64,000 nucleotides of DNA from Thermophilibacter mediterraneus (GTDB taxonomy: Bacteria > Actinomycetota > Coriobacteriia > Coriobacteriales > Atopobiaceae), in contig NZ_FPKO01000009.1 in NCBI RefSeq assembly GCF_900119385.1, forward strand, positions 829,405-893,404, written 5' to 3'. A model generated the notes under the pieces. It saw nothing but the letters and a program-made list of their open reading frames with translations, was not told the origin of the DNA and ran no database searches. The translations under genes and the position numbers were made by a program. The stretch's first letter is position 1. Each line of letters starts with the position of its first letter. Shown piece after piece: positions 33,845-50,510 of this stretch.

Positions 33845-33881
33845 AGAAAGGGTTTCTTCGAAGTTCGAGGGAACCCTTTCT
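33845..33881 (+). terminator. Diverged copy of the guaA-proximal terminator
   Basis: AGAAAGGGTTTCTTCG / CGAGGGAACCCTTTCT-type hairpin, homologous to 807-843, in the left end of the fossil element. Confidence 0.6.
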
Positions 33882-33991
33882 CTCACTCCAAAACGCTCCG
33901 TTCGGGATTATTCGTGCCGGAATTCGTACCAGCTCAGGAAGCGAAAAGCGCCAAGGCTGGGGGGGGACAAACGAGCTGCGACATCCAGGCA

Positions 33992-34300
33992 ATGAAGGAA
34001 CTGGAAGACTGCGCGCACTTCCGCGCGGGCCTCGTCGAGTACTCGCCGGAAAGCTTCGCCGCAGAGGAGCTCAGAGAAATACTCGATGACATGATCCGCG
34101 CACGCTTTGGGCTCGACGGCTGGAGCTTCCACGAGCTCGGGCACTCCCATCTCACGCCGCTCGCCCTGAACGGCGTGCGCCCCAAGGTCATGTGGGAGCT
34201 CGCCGGCCACTACAGCCCCCAGACCACCATGGACATCTACACCCACGTGAACATGGACGCCAAGAAGGAGGCGGTGGCCGCCGTGAGCAGGGTGTTCTGA
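33992..34300 (+). pseudogene. Fusion scar: left-end gene N-terminus joined to integrase C-terminus
   Basis: An in-frame ORF whose first ~38 codons (KELEDCAHFRAGLVEYSPES..EELREILDDMIR) match the left-end protein at 958 and whose last ~63 (RFGLDGWSFHELGHSHLT...MDIYTHVNMDAKKEAVAAVSRVF) match the C-terminus of the resident integrase. The catalytic HxxR has decayed to HELGHS, losing the Arg, while the Tyr remains. It cannot be an active recombinase; it might still bind core DNA or the resident integrase if expressed. Confidence 0.88.
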
Positions 34301-35289: not shown

Positions 35290-35427
35290 GGGCCGTCCCT
35301 CTCCGAAGATGCGAATCCGCCCCGATTTCTGGGCCGTCGCGTTACCTGCCGGCGGGGAGGGTACGAGAGGACTATCTACTTCCGATTGCCCGGGTCGCGA
35401 GCCCGGGTGGGAAGGGGGTCCTCCCCC

Positions 35428-36387
35428 ATGTGCACCGGCATCCGCTTCACCGGCTCCGACGGCTCCATGTACTTTGGCCGCAACCTCGACTGGACCCAGG
35501 GCTACGGCGAGCGCGTGGTGGTGACGCCTCCTGCCGCGCGGGTGCCGGCCGCCTTCCCGCGTCCCGGGGAGCCGGAGCGCGGGCACGCGGTCATTGGCAT
35601 GGGCATCGTCGTGGGTGGCGTGCCGCTCTACTTTGACTGCGGGAACGACGCCGGGCTCGCCGTGGCGGGTCTCAACTTCCCCCAGAGCGCACGCTACGCG
35701 ACCGCTCCCGAGCCCGGGCGCACGAACGTGGCGGCCTACGAGTTCCCGTACTGGGTCGCGCGCAACTTCTCCTCGCTCGATGAGGTGCGCGCCGCGCTCG
35801 GCGGGGTCCGCGTGGTCGCGCGTCCGGTGAACGACCGGCTTCCCGTCGCGAACCTCCACTGGCTCGTCGGTGACGCCACGGGCAGCGTGGTGGTGGAGTG
35901 CCTGGAGGACGGCCTGCGCGTCTGGGAGGACGACGTCGACGTGCTCACCAACGAGCCGGACTTCGGCTGGCAGCGCACGAACCTGCGCTCCTACCTGACG
36001 CTGAGCGAGAACGAGCCCGAGCCCGCGTCGTGGGGGCGCGCCCGCCTCGCGCCGTTCGGGTCGGGCATGGGCATGCGGGGCATGCCGGGGGACTACTCCG
36101 GCCCCTCCCGCTTCGTGAAGGCCGCCTTCGTGAACGCACGCTACCCCGTCCAGGATGGCGAGCGCGCAAACGTCACGCGGCTCTTCCGCACGCTCGGCTC
36201 GGTCGCCGTTCCGGACGGCTGCGCGCGCACCCCGGACGGCGCCTTCGAGCGCACCCTCTACACGAGCTGCTTCTCCGCCGCGACGCTCACCTACTACCAC
36301 GCCGCCTATGACGACCTCTCCGTCAGCGCCTACCCGCTCGCCTCGTGCGACCTGGGAGGGTCCGAGCCCCTCGTCCTGACGGCCTGA
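35428..36387 (+). CDS. bsh: Choloylglycine hydrolase (bile salt hydrolase type)
   Basis: A 319-residue N-terminal-nucleophile hydrolase. Cys2 follows the initiator Met (MCTGIRFTGSDGSMYFGRNLDW), with Arg18 and Asp21 at the positions required for catalysis; an Asn lies in GLNFPQSARY and the NEPDF.WQ segment matches the family. It would deconjugate taurine- or glycine-linked bile acids in the cytoplasm; penicillin V acylase activity is the alternative. The start at 35,428 is forced because the mature N-terminus must be Cys. Monocistronic, it points to a gut habitat. Confidence 0.9.
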   Translation: MCTGIRFTGSDGSMYFGRNLDWTQGYGERVVVTPPAARVPAAFPRPGEPERGHAVIGMGIVVGGVPLYFDCGNDAGLAVAGLNFPQSARYATAPEPGRTNVAAYEFPYWVARNFSSLDEVRAALGGVRVVARPVNDRLPVANLHWLVGDATGSVVVECLEDGLRVWEDDVDVLTNEPDFGWQRTNLRSYLTLSENEPEPASWGRARLAPFGSGMGMRGMPGDYSGPSRFVKAAFVNARYPVQDGERANVTRLFRTLGSVAVPDGCARTPDGAFERTLYTSCFSAATLTYYHAAYDDLSVSAYPLASCDLGGSEPLVLTA

Positions 36388-37394
36388 CCCGGCTTGACGG
36401 TATGACCTGACGAGATTGTCACCTTGCGCCAGGCGCTCGGGGACATTCCCGTCGCCTGTGAGAAGGCGTGGTCGAAGGCCGAGGGGCTCGGGTAGCCGAG
36501 AAGAACGGCGACGTCGGCGACGCCGAGCGCGCGGTCGCGCAGGAGCTCACAGGCCCGCTCCGCCCGCAGGCGCCGTCCGAAGGCCCCCACGCTCTCCCCG
36601 GTCTCGCGCTTGAACGCCGCGCAGAGGCGCGACCGGCTCACGTAGAGGCGGTCGGCGAGCTCCCCGATCCCCGTCGGTGCCTCGCCGGAGCCCACGGCGA
36701 GCTCGATGGCGTCGCGGGCTCGCCGCACGAGGTCCCCCTCGCCCGTCGCCGTCCCTCCCGCACGGCTCGCGGCGAGCGACGCCGCCATGGCATCGACCGT
36801 TGCCCTGAGCGCGAGCTCGCCGCCCGCCTCGCGGGGAGGGCGCTCCGGCACGGCAGCGAGCGCCCGCGCGATGGCAAGCCGCTCGTCACGCGATGAGACG
36901 TCACCGAACGACGAGAAGACCCCGCTGAACTCGCCGGGGTAGCGACGGTCGAGTTCGTCGAAGAACTCCGGGAGCACGATGATGGAGCGCGAGCGATAGG
37001 GGCGTCCCGCGAGGAGGCTGCTGACGTGCTCCCGTGGCGCGCGCTCGACGAACGTGGCGAGCTCCCCACCCCCGCCTGCGCCGGGGCCGAGGGGTCGGAT
37101 CGGCAGCCCGCACGTTCGCGAGCAGCGAAGCGCGTCGTCGCCGAGCGCGCACGCGCAGGCATAGGGCCCGGTCGACGCCTCGCGCAGCTCCATGTCCGCG
37201 CGCGGGGTGACGTCGTGGTGCAGCACGAGGCAGTGCGGGGTCGGCGCCGAGAGCCACATCGTGCCTTCGGCGGCGTCGCCCACGGCTCTCCCCACCCAGA
37301 TCGCTCCGCACCGCTCGAGGCGCATCTCGAGCTGGACCGCCTGCGGCACGAAGAGCGCGGCGAGCTCGCGTGGTATGTCTCCCACCCCGCCCAT
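36330..37394 (-). CDS. AraC-family transcriptional regulator
   Basis: A 354-residue protein with a ligand-binding N-terminal region containing cysteines (GPYACACALGDDALRCSRTCGLP) and a C-terminal AraC double HTH (GIGELADRLYVSRSRLCAAFKRETGESVGAFGRRLRAERACELL...VADVAVLLGYPSPSAFDHAFSQATGMSPSAWRK). About 30 unusual residues follow, encoded across a 36-bp repeat (36,388-36,423) and overlapping the bsh 3' end by 58 bp, so the natural C-terminus was probably altered. It is divergent from the ABC pair, which it probably activates. The start at 37,394 is the first ATG of the homologous region. Confidence 0.85.
   Translation of the reverse strand: MGGVGDIPRELAALFVPQAVQLEMRLERCGAIWVGRAVGDAAEGTMWLSAPTPHCLVLHHDVTPRADMELREASTGPYACACALGDDALRCSRTCGLPIRPLGPGAGGGGELATFVERAPREHVSSLLAGRPYRSRSIIVLPEFFDELDRRYPGEFSGVFSSFGDVSSRDERLAIARALAAVPERPPREAGGELALRATVDAMAASLAASRAGGTATGEGDLVRRARDAIELAVGSGEAPTGIGELADRLYVSRSRLCAAFKRETGESVGAFGRRLRAERACELLRDRALGVADVAVLLGYPSPSAFDHAFSQATGMSPSAWRKVTISSGHTVKPGQAVRTRGSDPPRSHEASG
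36388..36423 (+). repeat. 37-bp palindromic repeat, copy 1
   Basis: CCCGGCTTGACGGTATGACC..GAGATTGTCACC, closely similar to 41,173-41,209. It begins at the base after the bsh stop and lies inside the AraC 3' end. See the matching copy. Confidence 0.8.
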
Positions 37395-37434
37395 GTTGCG
37401 GATGCGTCCGTCCTTCTTGCGGTATCGTCTCCGA

Positions 37435-37452
37435 TTAGTTAGCCAACGTGAA
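37435..37452. promoter_or_regulatory. Possible iron-regulator box between AraC and ABC genes
   Basis: TTAGTTAGCCAACGTGAA resembles the DtxR/IdeR consensus TTAGGTTAGSCTAACCTAA with single-base gaps. It lies in the 126-bp divergent intergenic region. Weak match, supported by the likely siderophore-related role of the transporters. Confidence 0.35.
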
Positions 37453-37520
37453 CAATAGGCAATCGCCATGATACGGTGCGTCAGGTCGTCAATCAAGTCC
37501 TCGTTGCGTGAGGAGGAGCG

Positions 37521-39347
37521 ATGTCTGATTCGCCCGCACCGCGGCGGGAGGGCGGCGCCGTCGGGCGCCTGCTCGCCTTTGCCGGTGAGCGGCGGAGGCT
37601 CACCTATCTGGGGTGCGCCCTCTCTGCCGTGTCCATGCTGATCTCCTTTGGCCCATACGTCTGCATCTGGTTTGCCGCACGCGACCTGATCGCCGTCGCC
37701 CCGGACTGGTCCCGTGCCTCGACGATCTCCACGTACGGATGGTGGGCGCTCGGCTTCGCCGTGGCATCAATAGCTCTTTACTTCGCCGGCCTCATGTGTA
37801 CGCACCTTGCCGCCTTCCGCTGCGCCTCCAACATGCGCAAGCGCTCCGTCGGCCACCTCATGCACGCGAGCCTGGGGTACTTCGACACGCACGCGAGCGG
37901 GGCTCTGCGCCGCGTGGTGGACGGCTGCGCGGCGGAGACCGAGGGGCTGCTCGCGCACAAGCTTCCGGACACGGCGGGCTCCGTGGCGATGATCGTGGGC
38001 ATGCTCGCCCTGTTCTTCGTCTTTGACTGGAGGCTGGGCGTCGCGTGCCTCGTGCCCGTGGCGGTGTCGCTCGCCTGCATGTTCTACATGATGGGAGGGC
38101 GCGGCATGGACTTCATGACGCGCTACATGGAGTCGCTCGTAAAGATGAACAAGACCGGCACCGAGTACGTGCGCGGCATTCCCGTCGTCAAGGTCTTCCA
38201 GCAGACGGTCTTCTCGTTCAGGGCCTTCCACGACTCCATCGAGGAGTTCACGCGCCTCGCGCAGGACTATGCCGTGAAGTGGTGCCAGACGCCGCAGTCG
38301 CTCTCGCTCACCGTCATCAGCGCCGCCGCGGTCTTCCTCGTCCCGGTTGCGCTGCTCGTCGTCCCCGGCGAGGCTGACCTCGCGCGCCTCGCGGCGAACT
38401 TCGCGTTCTACGCGATCTTCTCCGCCGTCATCCCCACGGCCATGACGCGCGTGATGTTCATGTCGGAGGCGTTCCAGTCCGCGGCGGACGCTGTGAGCCG
38501 CGTGGAGGAGGTGCTCGCCGCCCCCGTTATTGAGGCTCCGGCCTCCCCGTGCTCGCCGCGCGACAACTCCATCCGCTTCGAGGACGTGTCCTTCTCCTAC
38601 GAGGGCGCCGAGGCGCCGGCGCTCGACCACGTCTCCTTCGAGGTTCCGGCGGGTGCCACCGTGGCGCTCGTGGGGCCCTCGGGCGGCGGCAAGACCACGG
38701 CGGCGAGCCTCGTGCCGCGCTTCTGGGACGCGAGTGCGGGGCGCGTCCTCGTTGGCGGCGTGGACGTGCGCGACGTGGACCCCGCGGAGCTCATGGGTCG
38801 CGTGGCCTTCGTCTTCCAGGCCAACCGGCTCTTCTCGCAGTCGATACTCGAGAACGTGCGCGCGGCGCGGCCGGATGCGACGCGCGAGGAGGTGATGGCC
38901 GCGCTCGAGGCCGCGCAGTGCGGCGACATCGTCGAGAAGCTGCCCGACGGCGTGGACAGCGTCTATGGAGCAGGCGGGACCCACCTCTCCGGAGGGGAGG
39001 TCCAGCGGCTCATGCTGGCCCGCGCCATCCTCAAGGACGCGCCGATCGTGGTGCTCGACGAGGCAACGGCCTTCGCCGACCCCGAGAACGAGGTCAAGAT
39101 CCAGGCCGCCTTCAGGCGCCTCGCCCGTGGGCGGGACGGCGCGCCGCGCACGGTGCTCATGGTTGCCCACCGGCTCTCCACGGTGAGAAACGCCGACAAG
39201 ATCGTGGTGCTCGACCGGGGTCGCGTGGCCGAGCAGGGCACGCACGACGAGCTCCTCTCCGCGGGCGGCCTCTACGCTCGCATGTGGGCCGACTACGAGC
39301 GCGCCGTGAGCTGGAGGATTTCGAGCGTCGAAGGGGGAGTGGCATAG
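37521..39347 (+). CDS. ABC transporter half-molecule 1 (membrane plus ATPase), siderophore-importer-like exporter fold
   Basis: A 608-residue type IV fold half-transporter: six membrane segments in the first ~330 residues, then an ATPase with Walker A VGPSGGGKTTAAS, signature HLSGGEVQRLMLARAI and Walker B PIVVLDEATAFADPENE. The LSGGE and DEATAFADPENE forms are typical of IrtA/YbtP-type pairs. Its stop is followed immediately by the second half-transporter, so they form a heterodimer. The AraC partner fits siderophore uptake systems; the substrate is inferred. Confidence 0.82.
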   Translation: MSDSPAPRREGGAVGRLLAFAGERRRLTYLGCALSAVSMLISFGPYVCIWFAARDLIAVAPDWSRASTISTYGWWALGFAVASIALYFAGLMCTHLAAFRCASNMRKRSVGHLMHASLGYFDTHASGALRRVVDGCAAETEGLLAHKLPDTAGSVAMIVGMLALFFVFDWRLGVACLVPVAVSLACMFYMMGGRGMDFMTRYMESLVKMNKTGTEYVRGIPVVKVFQQTVFSFRAFHDSIEEFTRLAQDYAVKWCQTPQSLSLTVISAAAVFLVPVALLVVPGEADLARLAANFAFYAIFSAVIPTAMTRVMFMSEAFQSAADAVSRVEEVLAAPVIEAPASPCSPRDNSIRFEDVSFSYEGAEAPALDHVSFEVPAGATVALVGPSGGGKTTAASLVPRFWDASAGRVLVGGVDVRDVDPAELMGRVAFVFQANRLFSQSILENVRAARPDATREEVMAALEAAQCGDIVEKLPDGVDSVYGAGGTHLSGGEVQRLMLARAILKDAPIVVLDEATAFADPENEVKIQAAFRRLARGRDGAPRTVLMVAHRLSTVRNADKIVVLDRGRVAEQGTHDELLSAGGLYARMWADYERAVSWRISSVEGGVA

Positions 39348-41123
39348 ATGTCGATCAAGGAGAAGTACGCGCTCACCGACGAGGGCGTAAGGAACGTGCG
39401 CCTCGGCGCGTTCTGGACCACCGTCACCAACCTCGTGGTCTTTGCGGGCGTGGGGCTTGCCTACCTCGTCATGAGCGCGCTCGTGGCGCGGCTCGTGGGG
39501 GGACCGGTCGAGCTGGGGCCGTGGGGCGCGCTCGGCTTCGACCCCCTCTCCGTGCCGGTTGCGGGCTGGCTCGCGGCGCTCGTTGCGTACCTCGTCGTCC
39601 TCTTCGTGTGCGAGCGACTCCAGTACTACTACCAGTACGGCGTCATCTACAAGGAGAGCGGTCGGCAGCGCATCGCCCTCGCGGAGCGTCTGCGGAAGCT
39701 CCCCCTCTCGTTCTTCGGTCGGCGCGACCTCGCGGACCTCACCGAGACGCTCATGACTGACGTCAAGACGACGGAGCACGCCTACAGCCACGTTCTCCCC
39801 GAGCTCTACGGTGCCTATGCGACCATGGTCATCGCGTTCGTGTGCCTCCTGTGCTTTGACTGGCGCCTGGCGGTGGCGTCCATGTGGTCCGGTCCGGTGG
39901 CTCTGGCCCTGCTCTTTGGGGTGCGCTCCAGGCTCCAGCCGCTCATGCGAAGGACCCGCATGGCGGGGCTCGAGGCGTCCGAGCGCATCCAGGAGGCACT
40001 CGAGTGCGTGCGCGAGGTGCGCGCGACCAACCAGGAGGGGCGCTACCTCGAGCGCATCTACGAGAGCGTCGATGCCGCGGAGCGGCGTGCCACGCGCGCG
40101 GAGATCGCGACCGGCATCTGCGTGAACGGGGCCCAGATCGTGCTGCGCCTGGGCCTCGCCACCACGCTGCTGGCGGGCGCCGCCCTCGTGATCGACGGCA
40201 GCTGCGACTTCCTTGCGCTCTTCTGCTTCCTTCTGGTGGTGAGCCGCATCTACGCCCCCTTCGACCAGGCGCTCATGCTCATCGCCGAGCTCTTCTCGGC
40301 ACGGACCGCAGCCGGTCGCATGAAGGGCTTCTTCGAGGAGCCGCTGGCAGAGGGCGGAGAGGCGTATGAGCCCGTCGGCCACGACGTGACCTTCGAGCAC
40401 GTGTCCTTCTCCTACGAGAGGGATGGCGAGAAGGTCCTGGACGACGTGTCCTTCACCGCTCGCGAGGGCGAGGTGACGGCACTCGTGGGACCGTCGGGTT
40501 CGGGAAAGTCCACCTGCGCGCGCCTTGCCGCCAGGCTCTGGGACGCGAGCTCGGGGCGCGTCGCCGTGGGCGGCGTGGACGTCTCGACCGTCGACCCGGA
40601 GGTGCTGCTGCGTGACTTCTCCGTGGTGTTCCAGGACGTGACGCTGTTCGACGACACCGTGATGGGCAACATCCGCCTGGGTCGACGCGGCGCCACCGAC
40701 GAGGAGGTGCTCGCCGCGGCGCGCGCCGCCAACTGCGACGAGTTCGTCTCGCGCATGCCCGAGGGCTACCAGACGATGATCGGCGAGAACGGTGCGCGCC
40801 TCTCCGGCGGGGAGCGCCAGCGCATCTCCATTGCACGTGCGCTGCTCAAGGGGGCTCCGATCGTGCTGCTCGACGAGGCCACGGCATCGCTCGACGTGGA
40901 AAACGAGACCGAGGTGCAGGCGGCGCTGAGCCGACTTCTCGCCGGCAGGACGGTCATCGTGATCGCGCACCGCATGCGGACCGTGGAGAGCGCGGACCAC
41001 GTCGTGGTGCTCGACCGCGGCCGCGTGGCAGAGCAGGGAGCGCCCGTCGCGCTCATGGCGGCCGACGGCCTCTTCGCCCGCATGGTGCGCCTTCAGCGCG
41101 AGAGCGCCGACTGGACGATCTGA
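39348..41123 (+). CDS. ABC transporter half-molecule 2 (membrane plus ATPase)
   Basis: A 591-residue partner of the preceding protein: six membrane segments, including the RIALAERLRKLPLSFFGRRDLADLTETLM coupling region, Walker A VGPSGSGKSTCARL, signature RLSGGERQRISIARAL and Walker B PIVLLDEATASLDVENE. Its ATG comes directly after the upstream stop. Heterodimeric exporter-fold pairs with an AraC regulator are characteristic of ferric-siderophore importers in Actinobacteria and Enterobacteria. Export of another compound is the alternative. Confidence 0.82.
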   Translation: MSIKEKYALTDEGVRNVRLGAFWTTVTNLVVFAGVGLAYLVMSALVARLVGGPVELGPWGALGFDPLSVPVAGWLAALVAYLVVLFVCERLQYYYQYGVIYKESGRQRIALAERLRKLPLSFFGRRDLADLTETLMTDVKTTEHAYSHVLPELYGAYATMVIAFVCLLCFDWRLAVASMWSGPVALALLFGVRSRLQPLMRRTRMAGLEASERIQEALECVREVRATNQEGRYLERIYESVDAAERRATRAEIATGICVNGAQIVLRLGLATTLLAGAALVIDGSCDFLALFCFLLVVSRIYAPFDQALMLIAELFSARTAAGRMKGFFEEPLAEGGEAYEPVGHDVTFEHVSFSYERDGEKVLDDVSFTAREGEVTALVGPSGSGKSTCARLAARLWDASSGRVAVGGVDVSTVDPEVLLRDFSVVFQDVTLFDDTVMGNIRLGRRGATDEEVLAAARAANCDEFVSRMPEGYQTMIGENGARLSGGERQRISIARALLKGAPIVLLDEATASLDVENETEVQAALSRLLAGRTVIVIAHRMRTVESADHVVVLDRGRVAEQGAPVALMAADGLFARMVRLQRESADWTI

Positions 41124-41172
41124 CGCCGCCACGTGCGCCGAGGCGGAGCCATCGACGTTCTTCTCGCCCGGG

Positions 41173-41209
41173 CCCGGCTTGACAGTATGATCTGGCGAGA
41201 TTGTCAACC
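41173..41209 (+). repeat. 37-bp palindromic repeat, copy 2
   Basis: CCCGGCTTGACAGTATGATC..GAGATTGTCAACC, nearly identical to 36,388-36,423. Its core TTGACA-N17-TGTCAA is an inverted repeat. An inverted copy of the recurring motif (GTTCTTCTCGC) lies just upstream at 41,157-41,167. A possible shortened relative occurs at 34,844-34,870. Confidence 0.8.
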
Positions 41210-41286
41210 GCGCGGGCAAGGTGACCAAGGAGTCACGTGACGGGCGACCCCCCTCGCCGGTAGGATGGCGCGAGGGGGGTGGTCGC

Positions 41287-41997
41287 ATGGGCGAGACCGT
41301 TCTTGTCGTCGAGGACGACGCTGACATCGTGGAGCTCCTCGAGCTCTACCTCACGGGGAGCGGCTACGAGGTCGTCTCGGCGCGAGACGGCGTCGCCGCG
41401 CTCGAGGCCCTGCGCGAGCGCCCGGTCGACGTGGCGCTCGTCGATATCATGATGCCGCGCATGAGCGGCTACGACTTCATCAAGGAGCTCCGGGCGACGA
41501 GCACGGTGCCCGTGATCATCGTCTCCGCGCGCACCCAGCCCGCCGACAAGATCGTGGGGCTCGACGCCGGGGCGGACGGGTTCATTGCCAAGCCGTTCGA
41601 TCCGCTCGAGGTCACGGCCTATATCCGGGCCGTGCTGCGGCGCTCCTCGCTCCCCGCGCCTGCCGTCGGCGGTGTCGCGACCCCGGACGAGGGAGCGGTC
41701 GTCTCCGTGGGGGAGCTCACCTTCGACACCAGGCGCCTCGTGCTCGCGCGCGACGGCGTGCCGGTCGCGCTCACCGCGGCCGAGCTCAAGATCATGGCAA
41801 AGCTCATGGCGTCGCCCGGACGCGTCTTCTCCAAGGACCAGCTCTACGCCTGCGTGAACGGCGAGCCCGCGCCGGGCGGGGCGGGCAGCGTGATGATGCA
41901 CATCTCGAACATCCGCGCCAAGCTCGAGGACGACCCGCAGCGCCCTCGCTTCATCAAGACCGTCCGCGGACTGGGGTACGTGCTCGATGGCTCGTGA
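41287..41997 (+). CDS. OmpR/PhoB-family response regulator
   Basis: A 236-residue regulator: receiver domain with Asp10/Asp11, phosphoacceptor Asp53 (ALVDIMMPRMSGYDF) and Lys in GFIAKPFDPLEV, then a winged-helix DNA-binding domain (LVLARDGVPVALTAAELKIMAKLMASPGRVFSKDQLY ... IRAKLEDDPQRPRFIKTVRGLGYVLDGS). Overall it resembles VanR-type regulators of cell-envelope genes. It overlaps the kinase gene by 11 bp, and the dlt-like operon begins shortly after, so envelope control is likely. Confidence 0.92.
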   Translation: MGETVLVVEDDADIVELLELYLTGSGYEVVSARDGVAALEALRERPVDVALVDIMMPRMSGYDFIKELRATSTVPVIIVSARTQPADKIVGLDAGADGFIAKPFDPLEVTAYIRAVLRRSSLPAPAVGGVATPDEGAVVSVGELTFDTRRLVLARDGVPVALTAAELKIMAKLMASPGRVFSKDQLYACVNGEPAPGGAGSVMMHISNIRAKLEDDPQRPRFIKTVRGLGYVLDGS

Positions 41998-43642
41998 GGG
42001 GGGCGCCGACCGCGGCTCGCTGCGCTCGGCCGCCCGCGCCCTGAGGGGCAGCCTCGCGATGCGCTGCCTCGCGCTCCTCGGCGTCTACGCGCTCGTGCTC
42101 GCAGGACTGCTCGGTGGCATGGGAGCGCTCGTCGACGGGCTCTTCGACGGCGCCTTCCCCTCGATGGGGACGGTTCTCGAGTACGAGGGCGAGCTTGCCG
42201 ACGACCGCTTCGGCGCGCTTGCCACGAGCAGGCTCTCCAACGCGCTCATCGTCGTCTTCGACGCCGACGGAAGGTGCCTCTACGCCTCGAGCGAGCGGGC
42301 CGCCGAGAGGGTCAGCGCGGCCGACCTCGCCATCATCGGGAGCTACGCCGGCTCGTCGTACGAGGTCTTCGAGGAGGCGGGAGAGGACGGGGAGGTGCGC
42401 TACCGCGTCATGCTCTGCGCCTACGACGGCGCGGGGGGAACGGCGAGGAGGGTGGTGGACTGGTGCGTGCTCGACGCTGACCTCAAGGTGGTGGAGGGCA
42501 CGCTCTTCTCGGGCCGAGAGCGGCTCACCCGTCGCGAGTTCGGCCTCATTCGCGGGCTCTACGGAGCGCGCATGGACATCTCGCGGCTCGACTACGCGAC
42601 CTCGTCCGGCGAGTCGCGCACCCTCGTGCTCGCGACGCCGCTCGTGACGGAGGAGGCCTACGCCAGGATCGCGGACGCGGCGAGCCGGGCGTGGCTGCTC
42701 GCGGTCCCCGCGGCGCTGGCGATAACCGCCGTCGCGGCGCTGCTCATGGCGCGCCTCGTGCGACGCTCGGCGCGCCCGCTCGACCGGGCCATCGCGGCGT
42801 GCGGCGAGCCGGGCGTCGCGCCCGAGCTCCCCGACGCCCGATCCGCCGGGGTGCCAACCGAGCTCGTCCCCATATACGAGGGGTTCTCCGACCTCATGGC
42901 CCGCCTGCGCTCGGCGCGCGACGACCAGGCGCGCATGGTCGCGAGCCTCTCGCACGACCTCAAGACGCCGCTGACCGTGATGCGCGGCTACGCGCAGGCG
43001 TTCTGCGAGGGGCGGGTGCCGCCGGAGCGCGAGGGCGCCTACCACCGCGTCATCCTCGAGCGCGCCGTCGCGGCGGCGGAGCTGCTCGAGGAGCTCTCGG
43101 GCTACGCCCGCACGGAGCACCCGGACTTCGCGCCCGAGCTCGTGGCATCCGACGCGCGCGAGCTCGTGGCGGGCACCGTCGCGGCGGCGCGGCCGCTCGC
43201 CGACCAGGCGGGGTGCGCCCTCGAGGTGGACCTCGGCCTGCGTCCGCTGCCGGTCCTCGCCGACGCCCGGCTCTTCCGCCGGATGCTTCTCAACCTCGTG
43301 GAGAACGCCGTCACCCACAACCCGCCCGGAACGCGCGTCCGCGTCTCGTGCGCCCCCGGTCCCCGGGCGCGCACGTGCGAGGTCTCGGTCGCCGACACCG
43401 GCGAGGGCGTGTCGCCCGAGGTCGCGGACCGCATCTTCGACCCCTTCGTGACGAGGGACGCCGCGCGCCCGTCGGGCGGGGGCACGGGGCTCGGCCTCGC
43501 CATCGTGCGGCGCGCGGCGGAGCTCATGGGTGGCTCGGTGCTGCTGCGCGAGCGTCCCGCCGCGCCCTGGGCCACGGAGTTCGCGGTCACGCTGCCGCTC
43601 GCGCGCGAGTCGGCATCAGCGAACGCTGAGGGTCGCGCCTGA
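41987..43642 (+). CDS. Sensor histidine kinase
   Basis: A 551-residue membrane kinase: N-terminal membrane helix (MRCLALLGVYALVLAGLLGGMGALVDGLF), an extracytoplasmic domain of ~190 residues, a second helix (WLLAVPAALAITAVAALLMARLV), HAMP-like linker, phosphoacceptor His323 in SLSHDLKTPLTVMRGY, N-box LNLVENAVTHNPPGTRV, G1 VADTGEGVSPEVADRIFDPFV and G2 GGGTGLGLAIVRRAA. Partner of the overlapping response regulator. The signal is unknown; the dlt-like genes downstream make cationic peptides or wall stress plausible. Confidence 0.92.
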   Translation: MAREGGADRGSLRSAARALRGSLAMRCLALLGVYALVLAGLLGGMGALVDGLFDGAFPSMGTVLEYEGELADDRFGALATSRLSNALIVVFDADGRCLYASSERAAERVSAADLAIIGSYAGSSYEVFEEAGEDGEVRYRVMLCAYDGAGGTARRVVDWCVLDADLKVVEGTLFSGRERLTRREFGLIRGLYGARMDISRLDYATSSGESRTLVLATPLVTEEAYARIADAASRAWLLAVPAALAITAVAALLMARLVRRSARPLDRAIAACGEPGVAPELPDARSAGVPTELVPIYEGFSDLMARLRSARDDQARMVASLSHDLKTPLTVMRGYAQAFCEGRVPPEREGAYHRVILERAVAAAELLEELSGYARTEHPDFAPELVASDARELVAGTVAAARPLADQAGCALEVDLGLRPLPVLADARLFRRMLLNLVENAVTHNPPGTRVRVSCAPGPRARTCEVSVADTGEGVSPEVADRIFDPFVTRDAARPSGGGTGLGLAIVRRAAELMGGSVLLRERPAAPWATEFAVTLPLARESASANAEGRA

Positions 43643-43732
43643 CCCTCAGCAAGCCTTGAGCAAATCCTCACGTCCGCCTGAGGGCGCCCCCGTAGGCTGG
43701 GGGATACGCATCGGACGGACAGGGAGGAACAC

Positions 43733-45328
43733 ATGGCCGAGACCATCTTCGGCTGCGGGCACAAGGCGACCTACGCCCACACCGCGCTCGCCTTTCTCGA
43801 GCGGGGCGCACGGTCCCACCCGGAGCGCGTCGCCGTGGTAGACGAGCGCGGCGAGCGCACCTACGGCGAGCTCTACGAGCGGAGCCGGCGGGTCGCGAGC
43901 GGCCTGCTCGAGCGCGGGCTGGGCGGCGGGCCGCTGATCGTGTGCATGGAGAAGAACGCGGAGGCCCTGGAGGCCTTCTTCGGGGCGCTCATGGCGGGTG
44001 GCTTCTACGTCCCGGTCGACCCGGGCGCGCCCTCGGGCCGCGCCGCGCGCTGCCTCGAGCGCCTCGGGCGGCCCCCGGTCGTCTGCGACGAGGGAGGCCT
44101 CGAGGCCGCGCGGGCGCTCTTTCCCGACGCGCTGGCGCTCACGCCGGGAGAGCTGGGGCGGTCCGCGCCCGATGACGGCGCGCTCGAGCGCGCCGCGCGC
44201 GACATCGTGCCCTCCGACGTCGCCTACGTGCTCTTCACCTCCGGCTCCACGGGCGAGCCCAAGGGGGTCGCGGTGAGCCACGCGGCGGTCCTCGAGTTCG
44301 TCTCGACCTTCGTGGGGACCTTCGGCCTGCGCCCCGACGACGTGGTCGGCAACCAGGCGCCGCTCGACTTCGACGTCTCGGTCAAGGACGTCTACGGCGC
44401 GCTCGCGGCGGGGGCCCGCGTGGTCCTGCTGCCCCGACGGCTCTTCTCGGCGCCCGCGCGCCTCGTCGCGGAGCTCGAGGAGCGCAGGGTCACGGTCCTC
44501 GTGTGGGCCGCGGCGGCGCTCTGCCTGGTGAGCGGCCTGCGCGCGCTCGACGGGGCGGCGCTCTCGCTCGTGCGCCTGGTCATGTTCAGCGGGGAGGTCA
44601 TGCCCGCGGAGCACCTGCGCCGCTGGATGAGGCGGCTGCCCGGGGCGACCTTCGTGAACCTCTACGGTCCCACCGAGGTCACCTGCAACTGCCTCTACCA
44701 CGTGGTCGACCGCGGCCGGGACTACCGGGGCGGGGTGCCGCTCGGCAGGCCCCTCCCCGGCCGCCGCGTGCTGCTGCTCGACGGACGGGGGCGTCCGGTG
44801 TCCGAGCCTGGGAGGGTGGGCGAGATCTACGTTGGCGGGACCGCCATCGCGCGCGGCTACTACGCCGACCCGGCGCGGACGCGCGACGCCTTCGTCCAGA
44901 GCCCGCTCGTGAGCGAGCTGCCCGAGACGCTCTACCGGACGGGGGACCTCGCGCTGGCGGGGGAGGACGGCGAGCTGTTCTTCTGCGGCAGGAGAGACAA
45001 CCAGGTCAAGATCCAGGGGCATCGCATCGAGCTCGAGGAGGTGGACGCGGCCTTCGAGCGCCAGGAGGGCGTCGATCGCTGCCGCTGCGCCCTTGACGAG
45101 CGGACGGGGCGTATCTGCGCCTTCTTCGAGGGGAGCGCGGGCCCCGACGAGCTCAGGCGCGCCGTCGCCCTCCTCGTGCCCGGCCCGGCGGTGCCGGCCG
45201 TAATCGAGCGCGTGGAGTCGATGCCCCTGCTCGGGAACGGCAAGGTTGACCGCGCGGCGCTTCTCGAGGACCGTCGCGCCCGGCGCGGGCGCGCGTGCGA
45301 GAGGGGAGGCGGGCGTCGTGATGACTGA
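43733..45328 (+). CDS. Amino-acid adenylating enzyme (DltA-like)
   Basis: A 531-residue stand-alone adenylation domain that should activate an amino acid and load it on the carrier protein encoded two genes downstream. Core motifs: A3 YVLFTSGSTGEPKGVAVSH, A5 VNLYGPTEVTCNC, A7 TLYRTGDLA, A8 GRRDNQVKIQGHRIELEEVDAAF, A10 MPLLGNGKVDRAALL. The Asp in LDFDVSVKDVY occupies the place that binds the alpha-amino group. DltA is the closest classical relative, but the presence of a decarboxylase next door makes D-alanine uncertain as substrate. It overlaps the next gene by 8 bp. Confidence 0.87.
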   Translation: MAETIFGCGHKATYAHTALAFLERGARSHPERVAVVDERGERTYGELYERSRRVASGLLERGLGGGPLIVCMEKNAEALEAFFGALMAGGFYVPVDPGAPSGRAARCLERLGRPPVVCDEGGLEAARALFPDALALTPGELGRSAPDDGALERAARDIVPSDVAYVLFTSGSTGEPKGVAVSHAAVLEFVSTFVGTFGLRPDDVVGNQAPLDFDVSVKDVYGALAAGARVVLLPRRLFSAPARLVAELEERRVTVLVWAAAALCLVSGLRALDGAALSLVRLVMFSGEVMPAEHLRRWMRRLPGATFVNLYGPTEVTCNCLYHVVDRGRDYRGGVPLGRPLPGRRVLLLDGRGRPVSEPGRVGEIYVGGTAIARGYYADPARTRDAFVQSPLVSELPETLYRTGDLALAGEDGELFFCGRRDNQVKIQGHRIELEEVDAAFERQEGVDRCRCALDERTGRICAFFEGSAGPDELRRAVALLVPGPAVPAVIERVESMPLLGNGKVDRAALLEDRRARRGRACERGGGRRDD

Positions 45329-46523
45329 CCGTGAGCTCCTTGGCCTCGCAGAGGGGTTCGGGACGCCGCTCTACGCGTTCGACGAGCGCGAGCTCGCCCC
45401 GCGCGCGGCGCGCCTGCGCTCCGCGCTCCCCGACGGGGTCGAGCTCTGCTATGCCGTCAAGGCCAACACCTTCGTGACCGGCGCGCTCGCCCCGCACGTC
45501 TCGCGCCTCGAGGCCTGCTCCCCGGGGGAGCAGCGCATCTGTCGCGCCCTGGGCGTCCCCGCCGGCAAGGTCGTGATCTCGGGCGTCAGCAAGGACCGCG
45601 AGTCCCTCGACGCCGCGATCGCCGCGCCGGAGCTTCCCGCGGCGGTGACCGTCGAGTCACCCGCGCAGCTCGAGCTCGTGCGAGGCATCGCGCGGGGGTG
45701 GGGCCGGCGCGTGCCGGTGCTCCTGCGCCTCTCGAGCGGCAACCAGTTCGGCGTCGACCGCGAGGAGCTCGTGCTGCTCGCGCGAGCGGCGGCCCGCGAC
45801 CCCGCCCTTGAGCTGCGCGGCGTGCAGCTCTTCACGGGAACGCAGAAGAGGTCGCCCGCGCGCCTGCGGCGCGAGGTGGCGGCGCTCGACGCGCTCATGG
45901 TCGAGCTCGCGGGCGTCTGCGGGCGCGAGCTGCCCGAGGTCGAGTACGGGCCGGGGCTGCCGGTCGCCTACTTCGAGGGCGAGGAGGCGGACGAGGGCGC
46001 GCTGCTCGCCGCCCTGGCCGAGTCGATCTTGGGCATGGCGTGCGGCGCCCGCGTCATCCTCGAGCTCGGGCGGAGCCTCGTCGCGGGATGCGGCACCTAC
46101 CTCACGCGCGTGACGGACGCCAAGGTGGTGGCGGGCGAGCGCTACGCCATCGCGGACGGTGGCATTCACCAGCTCGTCTACTACGGGCAGTCCCTGGCCA
46201 TGCGCCGGCCCCCGGTGCGCCTCCTGCGGGGCGGCGCGGGCGAGAAGGACGGCGCGGCCGAGGAGCTCGGCTGGAACGTGTGCGGGTCGCTGTGCACCGT
46301 CAACGACATCCTGGTCAAGCGGCTCCCCCTCGCCGGGCTCTCCGCGGGGTCGGTCCTGGCGTTCGACCTCGCCGGCGCCTACTGCGCCACGGAGGGCGCC
46401 GCGCTCTTCCTGAGCCGCGACCTTCCGCGCGTGGTGCTCGTCGGCAGGGACGGGGCGCCCGCGCTCGTGCGCGAGGGGGTGCGCACCGACCAGCTCAACA
46501 TGCCCGTCGCCGTGCGCGGCTGA
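45321..46523 (+). CDS. PLP-dependent decarboxylase (fold type III, DapDC/ODC-like)
   Basis: A 400-residue alanine-racemase-fold decarboxylase: Lys47 in CYAVKAN forms the PLP aldimine, the barrel ends with a phosphate-binding region, and the C-terminal domain has CGSLCTVNDIL (catalytic Cys) and FDLAGAYCATEGAALFLSRD. The RVPVLLRLSSGNQFGVD..LRGVQLFTGTQ stretch is family-typical. The stop of the adenylase overlaps its ATG. Adenylase-carrier-decarboxylase trios are known from exosortase-A-associated clusters; here the partners are MBOAT and SGNH proteins. It may decarboxylate a free or carrier-bound amino acid. Lysine-pathway LysA is the alternative but context argues against it. Confidence 0.85.
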   Translation: MTDRELLGLAEGFGTPLYAFDERELAPRAARLRSALPDGVELCYAVKANTFVTGALAPHVSRLEACSPGEQRICRALGVPAGKVVISGVSKDRESLDAAIAAPELPAAVTVESPAQLELVRGIARGWGRRVPVLLRLSSGNQFGVDREELVLLARAAARDPALELRGVQLFTGTQKRSPARLRREVAALDALMVELAGVCGRELPEVEYGPGLPVAYFEGEEADEGALLAALAESILGMACGARVILELGRSLVAGCGTYLTRVTDAKVVAGERYAIADGGIHQLVYYGQSLAMRRPPVRLLRGGAGEKDGAAEELGWNVCGSLCTVNDILVKRLPLAGLSAGSVLAFDLAGAYCATEGAALFLSRDLPRVVLVGRDGAPALVREGVRTDQLNMPVAVRG

Positions 46524-46551
46524 CGGGGGACTCAATCTGAAAGGACGTGGC

Positions 46552-46785
46552 ATGGACGCAATTCTGGACATTCTCGACGAGCTCAGGCCCGGCGCGGCGT
46601 TTGCCGGGCGCACCGACCTCGTGGACAGCCGCGAGCTCGACTCGCTCACCATCATCGCGCTCGTCGCCGAGCTCGAGGACGTCTTCGACGTCGTCGTCCC
46701 CGCGGTGGAGATCGTCCCCGAGAACTTCAACTCGCCCGAGGGCATCTGGGCCCTCGTCTGCCGCCTGCGCGCGCAGGACCTCTAG
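46552..46785 (+). CDS. Acyl/aminoacyl carrier protein (DltC-like)
   Basis: A 77-residue carrier protein. Ser31 in SRELDSLTIIALVAELED is the phosphopantetheine attachment site (D-S-L motif). The remaining helices (VVVPAVEIVPENFNSPEGIWALVCRLR) match the DltC/PCP fold. It accepts the activated amino acid from the adenylase and delivers it to the MBOAT protein. It lies between decarboxylase and MBOAT genes with short gaps. Confidence 0.9.
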   Translation: MDAILDILDELRPGAAFAGRTDLVDSRELDSLTIIALVAELEDVFDVVVPAVEIVPENFNSPEGIWALVCRLRAQDL

Positions 46786-46794
46786 GGGAGCATC

Positions 46795-48369
46795 GTGACC
46801 TCGTACTTCTCGCCGTCGTTTCTGGCGGTCTTCCTGCCCGTCGCGGTGCTCGCCTACCAGGCCGTACCGAGGAGGGCCCGCTGGGCGGTGCTCCTCGCGG
46901 CGAGCTACGCCTTCTTCTGGGCGCTGAGCGGGTGGCTCGTCGTCTTTGTGGTCGCCTCGACGGCGATCGTGTGGGGCGTCGGACGTGCCCTGGGGGCCGA
47001 GTCCTCCCGTCGCGCGCTCGCCCTCGCCGAGCCGGGAGCGGACCGTCGGGCGGTGCGCCAGCGCTGGCAGGGACGGATGCGCCTCACGCTCGCCGCGGGC
47101 GTCGTCGCCAACCTCGCGATCCTCTGGGCGCTCAAGTACGCCGGGCCGCTCGCGTCGTTCGCGGCGTCGCTCGGGGTGAGCGTCGGCGAACCGCCCTCGG
47201 TGGGGCTCCCCATCGGCATCTCGTTCTACACGCTCCAGGCCGTGTCGTATCTCGTGGACGTCTACCGGGGCGCCGTCGTCGCCGACGCGAACCCCGCCCG
47301 ACTCGCCCTGTTCCTCGCGTTCTTCCCGCAGATCATGGAGGGGCCGATCTGTCGCTACGCGCAGACGGCGCAGGCCCTCTGGGAGGGGTCGCCCGTCACG
47401 GCGCGCGGGCTCTTCTCGGGGAGCGCGCGCATGCTCTGGGGGCTGGCGAAGCGCATGGTGGTGGCGGACCGCCTGAACTCGTTCGTGCGCCCGGTCTTCG
47501 ATGACCCCGCCGCGTACGACGGATGCGTGATCGCGGTGGCGGCGGTCCTCTACACCCTGCAGCTCTACTGCGACTTCTCGGGGACGATGGACCTCGCCGT
47601 CGGCATGGGGCGCATCTTTGGCGTGGGCCTGCCGGAGAACTTCCGCCAGCCGTTCTTCTCGCGCACCGCCGCGGAGTTCTGGCAGCGCTGGCACGTGACG
47701 CTCGGCGCGTGGCTCAAGGACTACGTCTTCTACCCGGTCTCCCTGAGCGCCCCCGTCAGGCGGCTCACGGGGGCGGCCCGCCGCGCGCTTGGCGGCCGCG
47801 TGGGGCCGGCGGTGGCGAGCGGGGTGGCCCTGCTCGCCGTGTGGCTGGCGAACGGCCTCTGGCACGGGGCCGGAACGCAGTACCTGCTCTTCGGGCTGTA
47901 CTACTTTGCGGTCATCTGGCTCGGGGCGCTCGTCGCGCCGGCGTCCGAGGCGCTCTGCGCGCGCCTGGGCGTGAGCCGCGACGGCGCGCTCTGGCGCGGC
48001 CTGCAGCATGCGAGGACCCTGGTCGTGGTGCTCGTCGGGGAGCTCATCTTCCGCTCGGCGAGCGCCGCGCAGGGCGTGGAGCTGCTCGGGCGCGCCGCGC
48101 TCGGGTTTCGCGCCGCGTCGCTCGCGGACGGAACGGTGCTCGCCGTCGGCATGGACGCGGCGGACTTCGCGGCGGTCGCCGTCTTCGCCGCGCTGCTGCT
48201 CGTGGTCGGAGCGCTCAGGGAGCGCGGCGCGCGCCCGCTCGACGCCGTCTGGCGGCGGGGTCCGGTGGCGCGCGGGGCGCTGTGCTGCGCGCTGCTCGTT
48301 GGCGTGGTGGTCTTTGGGGCCTACGGCGCGGGATACGTTCCCGTCGACCCCATGTACGCGTCGTTCTAG
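46795..48369 (+). CDS. MBOAT-family membrane acyltransferase (DltB/AlgI-like)
   Basis: A 524-residue multispanning membrane protein. The start YFSPSFLAVFLPVAVLAYQ, the signature GLPIGISFYTLQAVSYLVDVYRG, the region FWQRWHVTLGAWLKDYVFYP and the catalytic His in LANGLWHGAGTQYLLFG define the DltB/AlgI branch. It moves an acyl or aminoacyl group from the carrier protein across the membrane to a glycan or teichoic acid. The GTG start follows AGGGGAG. It is followed by a DltD-like gene. Confidence 0.93.
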   Translation: MTSYFSPSFLAVFLPVAVLAYQAVPRRARWAVLLAASYAFFWALSGWLVVFVVASTAIVWGVGRALGAESSRRALALAEPGADRRAVRQRWQGRMRLTLAAGVVANLAILWALKYAGPLASFAASLGVSVGEPPSVGLPIGISFYTLQAVSYLVDVYRGAVVADANPARLALFLAFFPQIMEGPICRYAQTAQALWEGSPVTARGLFSGSARMLWGLAKRMVVADRLNSFVRPVFDDPAAYDGCVIAVAAVLYTLQLYCDFSGTMDLAVGMGRIFGVGLPENFRQPFFSRTAAEFWQRWHVTLGAWLKDYVFYPVSLSAPVRRLTGAARRALGGRVGPAVASGVALLAVWLANGLWHGAGTQYLLFGLYYFAVIWLGALVAPASEALCARLGVSRDGALWRGLQHARTLVVVLVGELIFRSASAAQGVELLGRAALGFRAASLADGTVLAVGMDAADFAAVAVFAALLLVVGALRERGARPLDAVWRRGPVARGALCCALLVGVVVFGAYGAGYVPVDPMYASF

Positions 48370-48399
48370 CGGCGCGGACCGGAGGGACAGGAGGATATC

Positions 48400-49281
48400 G
48401 TGGGGAATCGGCTCGTGCGGGCGTCGCGCTCGCTTCTCGAGGCGGCGCTTGCCGTGGCGGCGACGATCGCGGTCCTCGCCGCGCTCTCGCACGTGTTCGT
48501 GCCGAAGAACAACCAGGCGGAGTTCGGGCAGCGCGACGAGCGCGTCTACGGCGTGCTGGGGCAGCCGGAGGGAAGCGTCGAGGTGCTCTTCCTCGGGGAC
48601 TCCGAGGCGTACACGTCCTTCTCGCCGCTGCAGCTCTGGGACGAGCGGGGCATCACCTCCTACGTGCTGGGCACGTCCGGGCAGAAGCTCTGCTACACGC
48701 GCTCGCTGCTGGGGCGGGCGCTCGAGCGGCAGCGGCCGCGCGTGGTCGTGCTCGAGACCAACTGCCTGTTCAGGAGCTTCTCGGTGGGGGAGGCCCTCGT
48801 GCGGCTGGCGCAGGACGCGCTGCCCGTGCTCGAGTACCACGACCGGTGGAAGTCGCTCCGGCCCGAGGACGTCCTCGGCACGGTGCGCGCCACCTGGACC
48901 GACGAGGCGCGCGGGTTCGTGGGGAAGGAGGGGGCGGTGCCCGCCGACGCCTCCTCGCACATGGCGCCGAGCGACGAGGTCGCGGGGCTCCCGTGGCTGA
49001 GCCGGGTCTACCTGGACGACATCGCGCGGACGTGCGAGCGGGCGGGGGCGCGGCTCGTGCTCGTGAGCACGCCGAGCACGAGGAACTGGAGCACGGCGCG
49101 CCACAGCCGCATGGAGCGGGTCGCCTCGGAGCTGGGCGTCGACTACGTCGACCTCAACGTGGGGAAGGATCGCGTGGAGATCGACTGGTCGCGGGACACC
49201 TATGACGGCGGGGACCACCTCAACGTGGACGGCGCGCGGAAGGTCACGTCCGCCGTCGGCGCGCTGCTCGCGCGGGTGTGA
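48400..49281 (+). CDS. SGNH-hydrolase-like membrane protein (DltD/AlgX-like partner of MBOAT)
   Basis: A 293-residue protein with an N-terminal membrane anchor (LLEAALAVAATIAVLAALSHVF). Block I is VEVLFLGDSEAYTSFSPLQL, where the Ser is the nucleophile position; a C-terminal YDGGDHLNVDGARKV provides the Asp-x-x-His pair. Such proteins complete surface acylation together with MBOAT enzymes. The GTG start follows GGAGG. Its stop falls within a palindromic REP-like element, which may terminate the operon. Confidence 0.82.
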   Translation: MGNRLVRASRSLLEAALAVAATIAVLAALSHVFVPKNNQAEFGQRDERVYGVLGQPEGSVEVLFLGDSEAYTSFSPLQLWDERGITSYVLGTSGQKLCYTRSLLGRALERQRPRVVVLETNCLFRSFSVGEALVRLAQDALPVLEYHDRWKSLRPEDVLGTVRATWTDEARGFVGKEGAVPADASSHMAPSDEVAGLPWLSRVYLDDIARTCERAGARLVLVSTPSTRNWSTARHSRMERVASELGVDYVDLNVGKDRVEIDWSRDTYDGGDHLNVDGARKVTSAVGALLARV

Positions 49282-49324
49282 CAGGGGGACGGGGGGACTG
49301 TCACCGCTCCGTCCCCGCCGTCAC
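49277..49324. repeat. REP-like palindrome, copy 1
   Basis: GTGACAGGGGGACGGGGGGA..TGTCACCGCTCCGTCCCC. Related elements lie at 50,485-50,534, 52,607-52,656 and 53,263-53,316, all at gene ends. Confidence 0.75.
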
Positions 49325-49374
49325 GCCCCTCCGTGGCGCGTATACTCTCGTGAAACGCCTGGAAGGGGGTCCGC

Positions 49375-49914
49375 ATGGTCACCTATCGCATGGAACTGGA
49401 CGAGGAGAAGCGCCGCGCGGCGATCGAGGTCGCCCTCGAGAGCCCCGACAACGTGCGGCGCCGCAAGATCGGCGGCCGCGTCCTGGTGGCCCTGGGGGTG
49501 CTGCTGGCGCTGGAGTCGCTGCTGCTGCTCGCGATGCGCGGGCCGAGCGGGCCGAGGATCGCGCTGCTCCTCCTGGGCGCGGTGGCGCTCGGGTTCGGCG
49601 TGCGCGCGCGGGCGTGGCAGCGCTTCGTCATGCGTCGCGCGGAGCGACTCCTCGACAAGTCCCTGCGCTCCGGCGTGGCGTCGTACTCCTTCGACGACGA
49701 CGGCGTCACGATTGACTCCCGGCTCGGGCACAGCCTGTGCTTCTGGCCCTCCTTCCGAGAGTGGGGCACCAAGGGCCCCTACCTCTACCTCAGGCGCGCC
49801 GACAACCGGCTCGTCCTCGTGGAGAGGGGTGCGCTCTCGCAAGACGAGCTCGCTGAGCTGCTGCGACTGCTCGAGGCCCACGTCGGCCCGGGCAGAGGGG
49901 GCGACGCCGCGTGA
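49375..49914 (+). CDS. YcxB-like membrane protein
   Basis: A 179-residue protein with two adjacent membrane helices (VLVALGVLLALESLLLLAM; IALLLLGAVALGFGVRA) and a C-terminal beta domain (YSFDDDGVTIDSRLGHSLCFWPSFREWGTKGPYLYLRRADNRLVLVERGAL) in which the W-x-x-F..W and the final 'LVPKR'-like edge are typical of YcxB proteins. Its stop overlaps the start of the methyltransferase gene. Function unknown in the family. Confidence 0.7.
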   Translation: MVTYRMELDEEKRRAAIEVALESPDNVRRRKIGGRVLVALGVLLALESLLLLAMRGPSGPRIALLLLGAVALGFGVRARAWQRFVMRRAERLLDKSLRSGVASYSFDDDGVTIDSRLGHSLCFWPSFREWGTKGPYLYLRRADNRLVLVERGALSQDELAELLRLLEAHVGPGRGGDAA

Positions 49915-50510
49915 CCGACGAGCAGCTCGACCTGGCCGTCGCCGGGCGCTCGCTCGCGGGCGGGGGGAGGACCCGCCACGCCGCGGAGGGCGCGCACGAC
50001 CCCACCTCCACGCCCTGCTCCGTGCTCGACGAGCTCCTGGGCCCGCTTGACCTCAGCGGGGACTCCCACCTGCTCGACGTGGGGTGCGGGGAGGGACGCG
50101 TGCTCGCGTACTTCGTGGGCGCGGGGCTGCCCGGCCGCGTCACGGGAGTCGAGCTGGATCGGGGTCTCGCCGAGCGCGCCGCGGCATGGTCGGCGCGCTA
50201 CGACAACGTGCGCGTGGTGGCGGGCAGCGCGCTCGAGCTGCCGCTCGGCGAGTTCACGCACGTCTACCTGTTCAACCCGTTCGACACCCCGGTGCTCGAG
50301 GCGTTTCTCGACCGCCTCGAGCGCGAGGCGCGCGCCCCCGTGACGCTCGTGCACATGTCCGACAACGGGGAGTGGCCCGCCTACCTGGGGCGCGCTGGCT
50401 GGGAGCTGCTGCGCGAGGGCTTCCTCGAGCTTCCGGGCGAGAAGGGCGACTGCCCGCAGCACTTCTCGGTGCGTCGCTACATCGGTGGGACATCGGGGAC
50501 GGAGCGGTGA
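49911..50510 (+). CDS. Class I SAM-dependent methyltransferase
   Basis: A 199-residue enzyme: motif I SHLLDVGCGEGRVLAYFVG, acidic loop VTGVELDRGLAERAA, and YLFNPFDTPVLEAFLDRL where a catalytic motif IV would be. The substrate cannot be told. The GTG start overlaps the upstream stop by 4 bp. The last seven codons (GGTSGTER) are encoded by a REP-like palindrome that also supplies the stop, so the original C-terminus has been replaced. Confidence 0.75.
   Translation: MTDEQLDLAVAGRSLAGGGRTRHAAEGAHDPTSTPCSVLDELLGPLDLSGDSHLLDVGCGEGRVLAYFVGAGLPGRVTGVELDRGLAERAAAWSARYDNVRVVAGSALELPLGEFTHVYLFNPFDTPVLEAFLDRLEREARAPVTLVHMSDNGEWPAYLGRAGWELLREGFLELPGEKGDCPQHFSVRRYIGGTSGTER

Follow-up and report, generated by a model that had tools for sequence, protein, structure and literature searches.

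The 64,000-nucleotide window analysed here, a stretch of contig NZ_FPKO01000009.1 from Thermophilibacter mediterraneus (genome size 2.37 Mb), contains at 41287-49281 an operon of seven genes in which the parts of a surface acylation system resembling Dlt, the pathway of D-alanylation, stand together with a fold-III decarboxylase dependent on pyridoxal phosphate (PLP). All seven genes lie on the forward strand, separated by gaps of 9-90 bp or joined by short overlaps, and the distribution of GC over codon positions is typical of real genes in every one of the frames. Their positions and order, as given in a preliminary description made from the sequence alone, were borne out:

41287-41997, forward strand: response regulator, OmpR-type (Pfam Response_reg and Trans_reg_C; homologues adjacent in other loci)
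41987-43642, forward strand: sensor histidine kinase (Pfam HisKA/HATPase_c; 11 bp shared with the response regulator gene)
43733-45328, forward strand: stand-alone adenylase (Pfam AMP-binding; TIGR01733 over cut-off)
45321-46523, forward strand: fold-III PLP decarboxylase, BtrK-like (Pfam Orn_Arg_deC_N and Orn_DAP_Arg_deC; Lys47, Cys325)
46552-46785, forward strand: carrier protein (Pfam PP-binding; phosphopantetheine site Ser31)
46795-48369, forward strand: MBOAT acyltransferase (Pfam MBOAT; His300, His357; C-terminal extension of about 140 residues ending PMYASF)
48400-49281, forward strand: SGNH protein (weak Lipase_GDSL_2; N-terminal hydrophobic segment; Ser68, Asp269, His273)

Pfam matches passed their cut-offs for six of the seven proteins, the SGNH protein scoring 23 against a cut-off of 32.9 for Lipase_GDSL_2, and the histidine kinase has an outer sensor region between two hydrophobic segments. 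In the NCBIfam scan the adenylase exceeded the cut-off of the generic amino-acid adenylation model TIGR01733 alone, and no model over its cut-off gave a name to the decarboxylase, the carrier, the MBOAT or the SGNH protein. The coordinates confirm that the PLP gene is placed between the adenylase and the carrier, its ATG at 45321 and the end of the adenylase stop codon at 45328 giving the 8-bp overlap described before.

Conservation and separation from D-alanylation

Scanning covered 84,980 genomes, one per species, and yielded 80 loci, four of which (L107, L109, L110, L111) were set aside for their LysA-like motifs, leaving 76 with a relative of the decarboxylase. All five genes from the adenylase to the SGNH protein occur on one strand in 64 of these 76, and 60 of the 64 complete loci keep the order adenylase, PLP decarboxylase, carrier, MBOAT, SGNH, seven of the 60 with a second MBOAT; the SGNH gene is relocated in three others, and the MBOAT-SGNH pair is placed in front in one. 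Among the 12 incomplete loci most are cut by contig ends, whereas L082, L094 and L098 are long and yet lack at least one partner. With the full set in 64 of 76 public loci, and in the same order in 60 of these, the five genes form a conserved system and not a chance co-location, and the gene order, which the preliminary description had proposed to seek in other genomes, recurs widely.

The hosts of the five-gene set belong to the Coriobacteriia and the Clostridia. In the Actinomycetota sample the decarboxylase was found in 7 of 296 genomes, each time in the gene order of the window; it is present in 36 of 140 genomes of the window's own family, and in the class of Acetobacterium strong matches were obtained in 9 of 291 genomes. 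The nearest named relative of the decarboxylase, at 70% identity, is that of Thermophilibacter provencensis. The adenylase had no match among 72,556 plasmid records at E 1e-60, and no report of the gene set was found in the open-access literature, to which the search extended. A two-component system gene directly precedes the adenylase in 16 of the 48 loci with enough upstream sequence, so that the neighbour singled out earlier as a possible regulator recurs elsewhere; the two-component system probably controls expression of the operon. L061, L065, L066, L067, L079 and L103 have one carrier flanked by two MBOAT/SGNH pairs, an arrangement in which perhaps one donor feeds two acceptor polymers.

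The genome has a separate dlt operon on contig C1 (about 1,171,950-1,176,360), in which DltB, DltC and DltD exceed their cut-offs and a DltX-like open reading frame (ORF) ending FIYDSF lies at the end of the dltD neighbourhood. The window proteins, on the other hand, reach 222.9 against a cut-off of 559.85 for DltA, 143.9 against 375 for DltB and 28.6 against 68 for DltC; the NCBIfam scan gave no DltD match in the window operon, no separate DltX-like ORF ending FxYxxF was present in window 41000-50500, and six of the seven additional genomes examined that carry the five-gene system showed no DltD. Specificity for D-alanine was rejected on the failed Dlt cut-offs, on the presence of dltABCD elsewhere and on an adenylase pocket unlike that of DltA (95 of 95 family members compared with 12 of 12 DltA sequences), which also speaks against one outcome that would have counted against the preliminary description. 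On these sequence grounds the window operon is distinct from the D-alanine pathway.

Nor is the PLP protein the only LysA candidate of the cell. A second LysA-type fold-III protein is encoded in the genome, with LysA as its best model (264.8 bits against a cut-off of 297.9); this protein (L125:3006-4205, reverse strand) reads HAFLASNTHGN instead of the HIGSQ motif and may be a divergent LysA.

Adenylase pocket, decarboxylase and export proteins

The ten-residue pocket code of the adenylase, mapped onto GrsA positions, is D-V-K-V-M-S-L-C-N-K in the window protein (residues 214, 215, 218, 257, 284, 286, 310, 318, 319 and 504) and D-V/I-K-x-x-S-L/V-C-N-K in 95 of 95 family members, with D235, K239, S301, C330, N331 and K517 (GrsA numbering) invariant in all of them. 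The DltA code of relatives, DL(M/Y/F)VLC(T/S)VAK in 12 of 12, is unlike the family code at no fewer than six of the ten positions. As Lys239 is buried and invariant, an anionic group is expected on the substrate, and we infer from this pocket lysine a substrate that carries one. Asp235 and Ser301, again present in 95 of 95, correspond to D230 and S299 of VinN, the vicenistatin adenylase. According to two reports, VinN adenylates the beta-carboxylate of methyl-aspartate, and its Asp230 and Ser299/Arg331 are proposed to recognize the amino and alpha-carboxyl groups of the substrate (PMC7756342; PMC11253843). Furthermore, Val236 equals A236V, the change fixed in TycA evolved to beta-amino acids (PMC11253843; PMC7756342). 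In the region of the beta13-beta14 loop, which in VinN-type adenylases is shorter by one residue, there is one gap relative to DltA beside the loop, the position of the gap depending on the alignment, and structure searches with the adenylase did not tell DltA and non-ribosomal peptide synthetase (NRPS) adenylases apart.

The fold-III protein retains Lys47 and its Cys, as had been stated, and both (Lys47, Cys325) are invariant in 107 of 107 aligned homologues. When a 31-member profile of the decarboxylase was compared with all PDB sequences, BtrK came first (176.8 bits), followed by the best LysA (161.4) and SbnH (160.5). The window protein has the motifs LFTGTQ and GSLCT; the family shows LC(T/S) where LysA has ICE, and aromatic-(S/T)-G-T-Q where LysA has HIGSQ, while BtrK carries LCT and YTGTQ and SbnH carries LCT. 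Neither the Cys-Glu motif of LysA nor the R-P of 'NDLIRP' occurs in the family, the window protein having Cys-Thr. The substrates of BtrK and SbnH are amino acids conjugated at the far end or side chain (PMC7857480). An AF2 model of the decarboxylase (pLDDT 87) superimposes on BtrK with Z 37.1 and rmsd 3.5 over 384 aligned residues. Membership in LysA was rejected (TIGR01048, 145.6 against a cut-off of 297.9 bits; Cys-Glu motif absent), and so was membership in the adenylase/carrier/decarboxylase trio of exosortase-A clusters, with 175 against 592.35 bits for TIGR03098 and 173.1 against 478.45 bits for TIGR03099. The comparison with that trio drawn in the preliminary description is thus weak, both proteins falling far under the cut-offs, even if no other NCBIfam model fits the window decarboxylase better than TIGR03099; moreover, the window decarboxylase family is tied to MBOAT and SGNH genes in 64 of 76 loci. 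Decarboxylation of a carrier-bound substrate, as by BtrK, VinO or BolN, would be the better parallel.

The catalytic residues of the remaining proteins are kept throughout: Ser31 of the carrier in 101 of 101, both histidines of the MBOAT in 68 of 68, and the Ser/Asp/His set of the SGNH protein in 66 of 66. Together with the five-gene set they support the pathway first put forward, a surface acylation of the dlt type that includes its own decarboxylase. Solved DltB aligned to positions of about 134-385 of the MBOAT profile alone, and beyond these lies the C-terminal extension, whose last residues are P-(I/M)-Y-A-x-F; all but one of the 74 full-length members (73) have the YxxF part. The SGNH profile found no match among PDB sequences. 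In PatA, which acts with PatB in peptidoglycan O-acetylation, the tyrosine of the hexapeptide FIYANF carries the acyl group, and the Dlt counterpart of this motif resides on a separate peptide, DltX (PMC12148441). The window protein has PMYASF in this place, many relatives have PIYANF, and we infer a PatA-like shuttle that would replace DltX.

Related operons occur in which the decarboxylase is missing. In L134 (6416-7351, forward strand) and L138 (3649-4569, reverse strand) which belong to the same family, a GNAT acetyltransferase gene follows the adenylase and precedes the carrier, in the slot taken elsewhere by the PLP decarboxylase; the pocket code is unchanged, and these loci are possible N-acylated variants. 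L137 has the same code and neither a PLP decarboxylase nor a GNAT gene in this slot. A strict link between pocket code and PLP gene was rejected on these three loci; as the code occurs with a GNAT gene or with neither, the loaded substrate need not be the product of the decarboxylase. In genomes G066 and G072 the decarboxylase matches were weaker and LysA-like only. L133 (5087-9545) and L135 (4319-9258) contain an adenylase-carrier-MBOAT-SGNH set and a two-component system without a decarboxylase. Their adenylase code, SMSYLALDIK, is devoid of the amino-binding Asp235, and the acyl group there may therefore be no amino acid. From such comparisons, carrier-fed envelope acylation systems seem to form a wider set with several kinds of tailoring insert, the decarboxylase being one of them.

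A putative acylation route and its alternatives

It can be rationalized from the above that the operon, on a modest balance of probability, would encode a carrier-fed envelope acylation pathway in which decarboxylation of a carrier-bound precursor produces the acyl group. A PLP alpha-decarboxylase requires a free alpha-amine and alpha-carboxylate, and a carrier thioester requires another carboxylate; if decarboxylation takes place on the carrier, both needs can be satisfied only by a dicarboxylic amino acid whose side chain provides the thioester link. The adenylase would activate the side-chain carboxylate of such an amino acid, most likely aspartate, with glutamate second, an order that follows from adenylase precedents using Asp or methyl-Asp; Asp235 and Ser301 would contact the amino end, Lys239 would bind the alpha-carboxylate, and the activated residue would be loaded on the phosphopantetheine of carrier Ser31. 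The BtrK-like PLP enzyme would then strip the alpha-carboxylate from the carrier-bound residue, leaving beta-alanyl-S-carrier (or the S-carrier thioester of gamma-aminobutyric acid, GABA). The MBOAT would next place this group on the tyrosine in the P-M/I-Y-A-x-F motif at its C-terminus, a motif that would stand in for DltX. The SGNH protein would then use the group to esterify a hydroxyl on an envelope polymer, leaving the amine free. Like D-alanine, the attached group would be cationic, but one or two additional carbons would lie between its amine and the ester. By general chemistry an ester with a more distant amine is expected to be less prone to hydrolysis.

Loading before decarboxylation, which is probably the order here, has precedents in VinN/VinL/VinO of vicenistatin biosynthesis (PMC11284099) and in BtrI/BtrK of the butirosin pathway, where carrier-bound glutamate is decarboxylated (PMC7857480). 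For BolO/BolC/BolN of bolagladin, decarboxylation on the carrier was proposed, and a bolN mutant was not rescued by feeding beta-alanine (PMC7756342). The preliminary description had suggested amines of the cadaverine, putrescine or ethanolamine type as the attached group. This part was not supported: such free amines were rejected as products in either order of steps, as a simple amine offers the adenylase no carboxylate. Because the adenylase needs one, the substrate must keep a carboxylate after decarboxylation, as in the conversion of Asp to beta-alanine or of Glu to GABA.

Several observations weigh against this route, first among them those on the adenylase. The Lys330/Arg331 pair of VinN is absent, Cys/Asn standing in its place in 95 of 95 members, so that the family is not a plain VinN; Lys239, a feature of the window family, may serve instead of the pair. 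DltA is likewise bulky at positions 236 and 301, and A domains acting on glutamate through its alpha-carboxylate have Lys239 as well. As to the decarboxylase, BtrK is tied with LysA by structure (Z 37.1 and 36.9), and the tree, in which a 100/98 split sets BtrK with the family and apart from LysA, has long branches that weaken this placement. In the genome of L137 the decarboxylase matches are LysA-like only, and nearly all members open the shuttle motif with Pro in place of Phe.

If decarboxylation came first, free beta-alanine, GABA or L-lysine (from meso-diaminopimelate) would be loaded afterwards, and the same decoration or a lysyl ester would result. We consider this unlikely. It would suit a fold-III decarboxylase with LysA as second-best relative, and same-code adenylases without an adjacent decarboxylase (L137, L134, L138) could obtain the product elsewhere, but the invariant Lys239 is hard to account for with a substrate of a single carboxylate, the family has neither the Cys-Glu of LysA nor the R-P of 'NDLIRP', and the close trio precedents all decarboxylate on the carrier. 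It is quite unlikely that the adenylase loads Glu or Asp by the alpha-carboxylate and that the PLP enzyme acts elsewhere, for example as a racemase or after transfer. Lys239 and Asp235 are compatible with alpha-activation of an acidic amino acid, and fold III includes alanine racemase, Ala_racemase_N being matched in the PLP protein; its C-terminal domain, however, is that of a decarboxylase and has the corresponding Cys, and the PLP gene directly follows the adenylase in every complete locus. A natural-product cluster for a secreted small molecule, and not for envelope modification, is very unlikely: the trio precedents are antibiotic pathways, and L098 has an adenylase-decarboxylase-carrier trio with two carriers near further adenylases and no MBOAT/SGNH, yet the MBOAT and SGNH genes accompany the trio in 64 of 76 loci with catalytic residues and shuttle motif kept, and the window operon includes no polyketide synthase (PKS) or NRPS gene. 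A plain second D-alanine dlt operon, into which a lysA copy was inserted by chance, is barely credible, for DltB as the sole NCBIfam match of the MBOAT (143.9 bits) stands against at least six of ten pocket positions unlike DltA, Dlt scores all below cut-off with the true dltABCD elsewhere, and a gene set kept across two phyla.

Known systems, neighbourhood and meaning

The carrier-fed route proposed here shares with Dlt (DltABCDX) an adenylase, a carrier, an MBOAT, an SGNH protein and a carrier-bound acyl donor, and differs from it in the pocket code, the added decarboxylase and the shuttle-like motif fused to the MBOAT instead of DltX. With PatA/PatB it has in common the C-terminal tyrosine motif of the MBOAT and the paired SGNH protein, whereas the window system encodes its own carrier protein. 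BtrI/BtrK resembles it in the decarboxylase (BtrK being the best solved one by profile, with the LCT motif) and in the stand-alone carrier, although the butirosin product is destined for an antibiotic; BtrJ, the butirosin activating enzyme, is not known to be of the NRPS adenylase type. The systems for beta-amino-acyl starter units, VinN/VinL/VinO, FlvN and BolO/BolC/BolN, likewise combine an adenylase, a stand-alone carrier and a PLP decarboxylase, but they deliver their product to a PKS or NRPS and not to an envelope acyltransferase.

Two half-size ABC transporter proteins (37521-41123, forward strand) are encoded just upstream of the operon, preceded by a choloylglycine-hydrolase family protein (35386-36387, forward strand) and an AraC-type regulator (36330-37496, reverse strand). 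Farther away, at about 2700-33700 of the window, lies a prophage-like region with an integrase (32417-33616), primase/helicase, portal, major head, tail-fibre-like and DNA methyltransferase genes. It is flanked by a direct repeat of about 360 bp with 72% identity (734-1089 and 33772-34096), and the ORF 33914-34300 in the right copy has a match to the phage integrase domain, in its C-terminal portion; successive integrations at a single site may have left these repeats behind.

In this context one should recall that cationic wall decoration influences resistance to host defence peptides, D-alanine being the well-known carrier-fed case. With slightly less than even confidence, we suggest that the window operon represents a third kind of MBOAT/SGNH system, in which a Dlt-like carrier, a PatA-like fused shuttle and exchangeable PLP or GNAT tailoring enzymes would be combined, and by which gut Coriobacteriia and Clostridia may carry beta-alanyl or GABA esters. 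MBOAT/SGNH pathways except Dlt were described as having no carrier protein and using acyl-CoA, and such a system would run counter to this split between carrier-fed MBOATs with DltX and fused-motif MBOATs with acyl-CoA (PMC12148441). If the proposal is true, carrier decarboxylation in the style of natural-product biosynthesis would be joined to envelope export, and common gut bacteria would be seen to possess a surface chemistry of a new kind.

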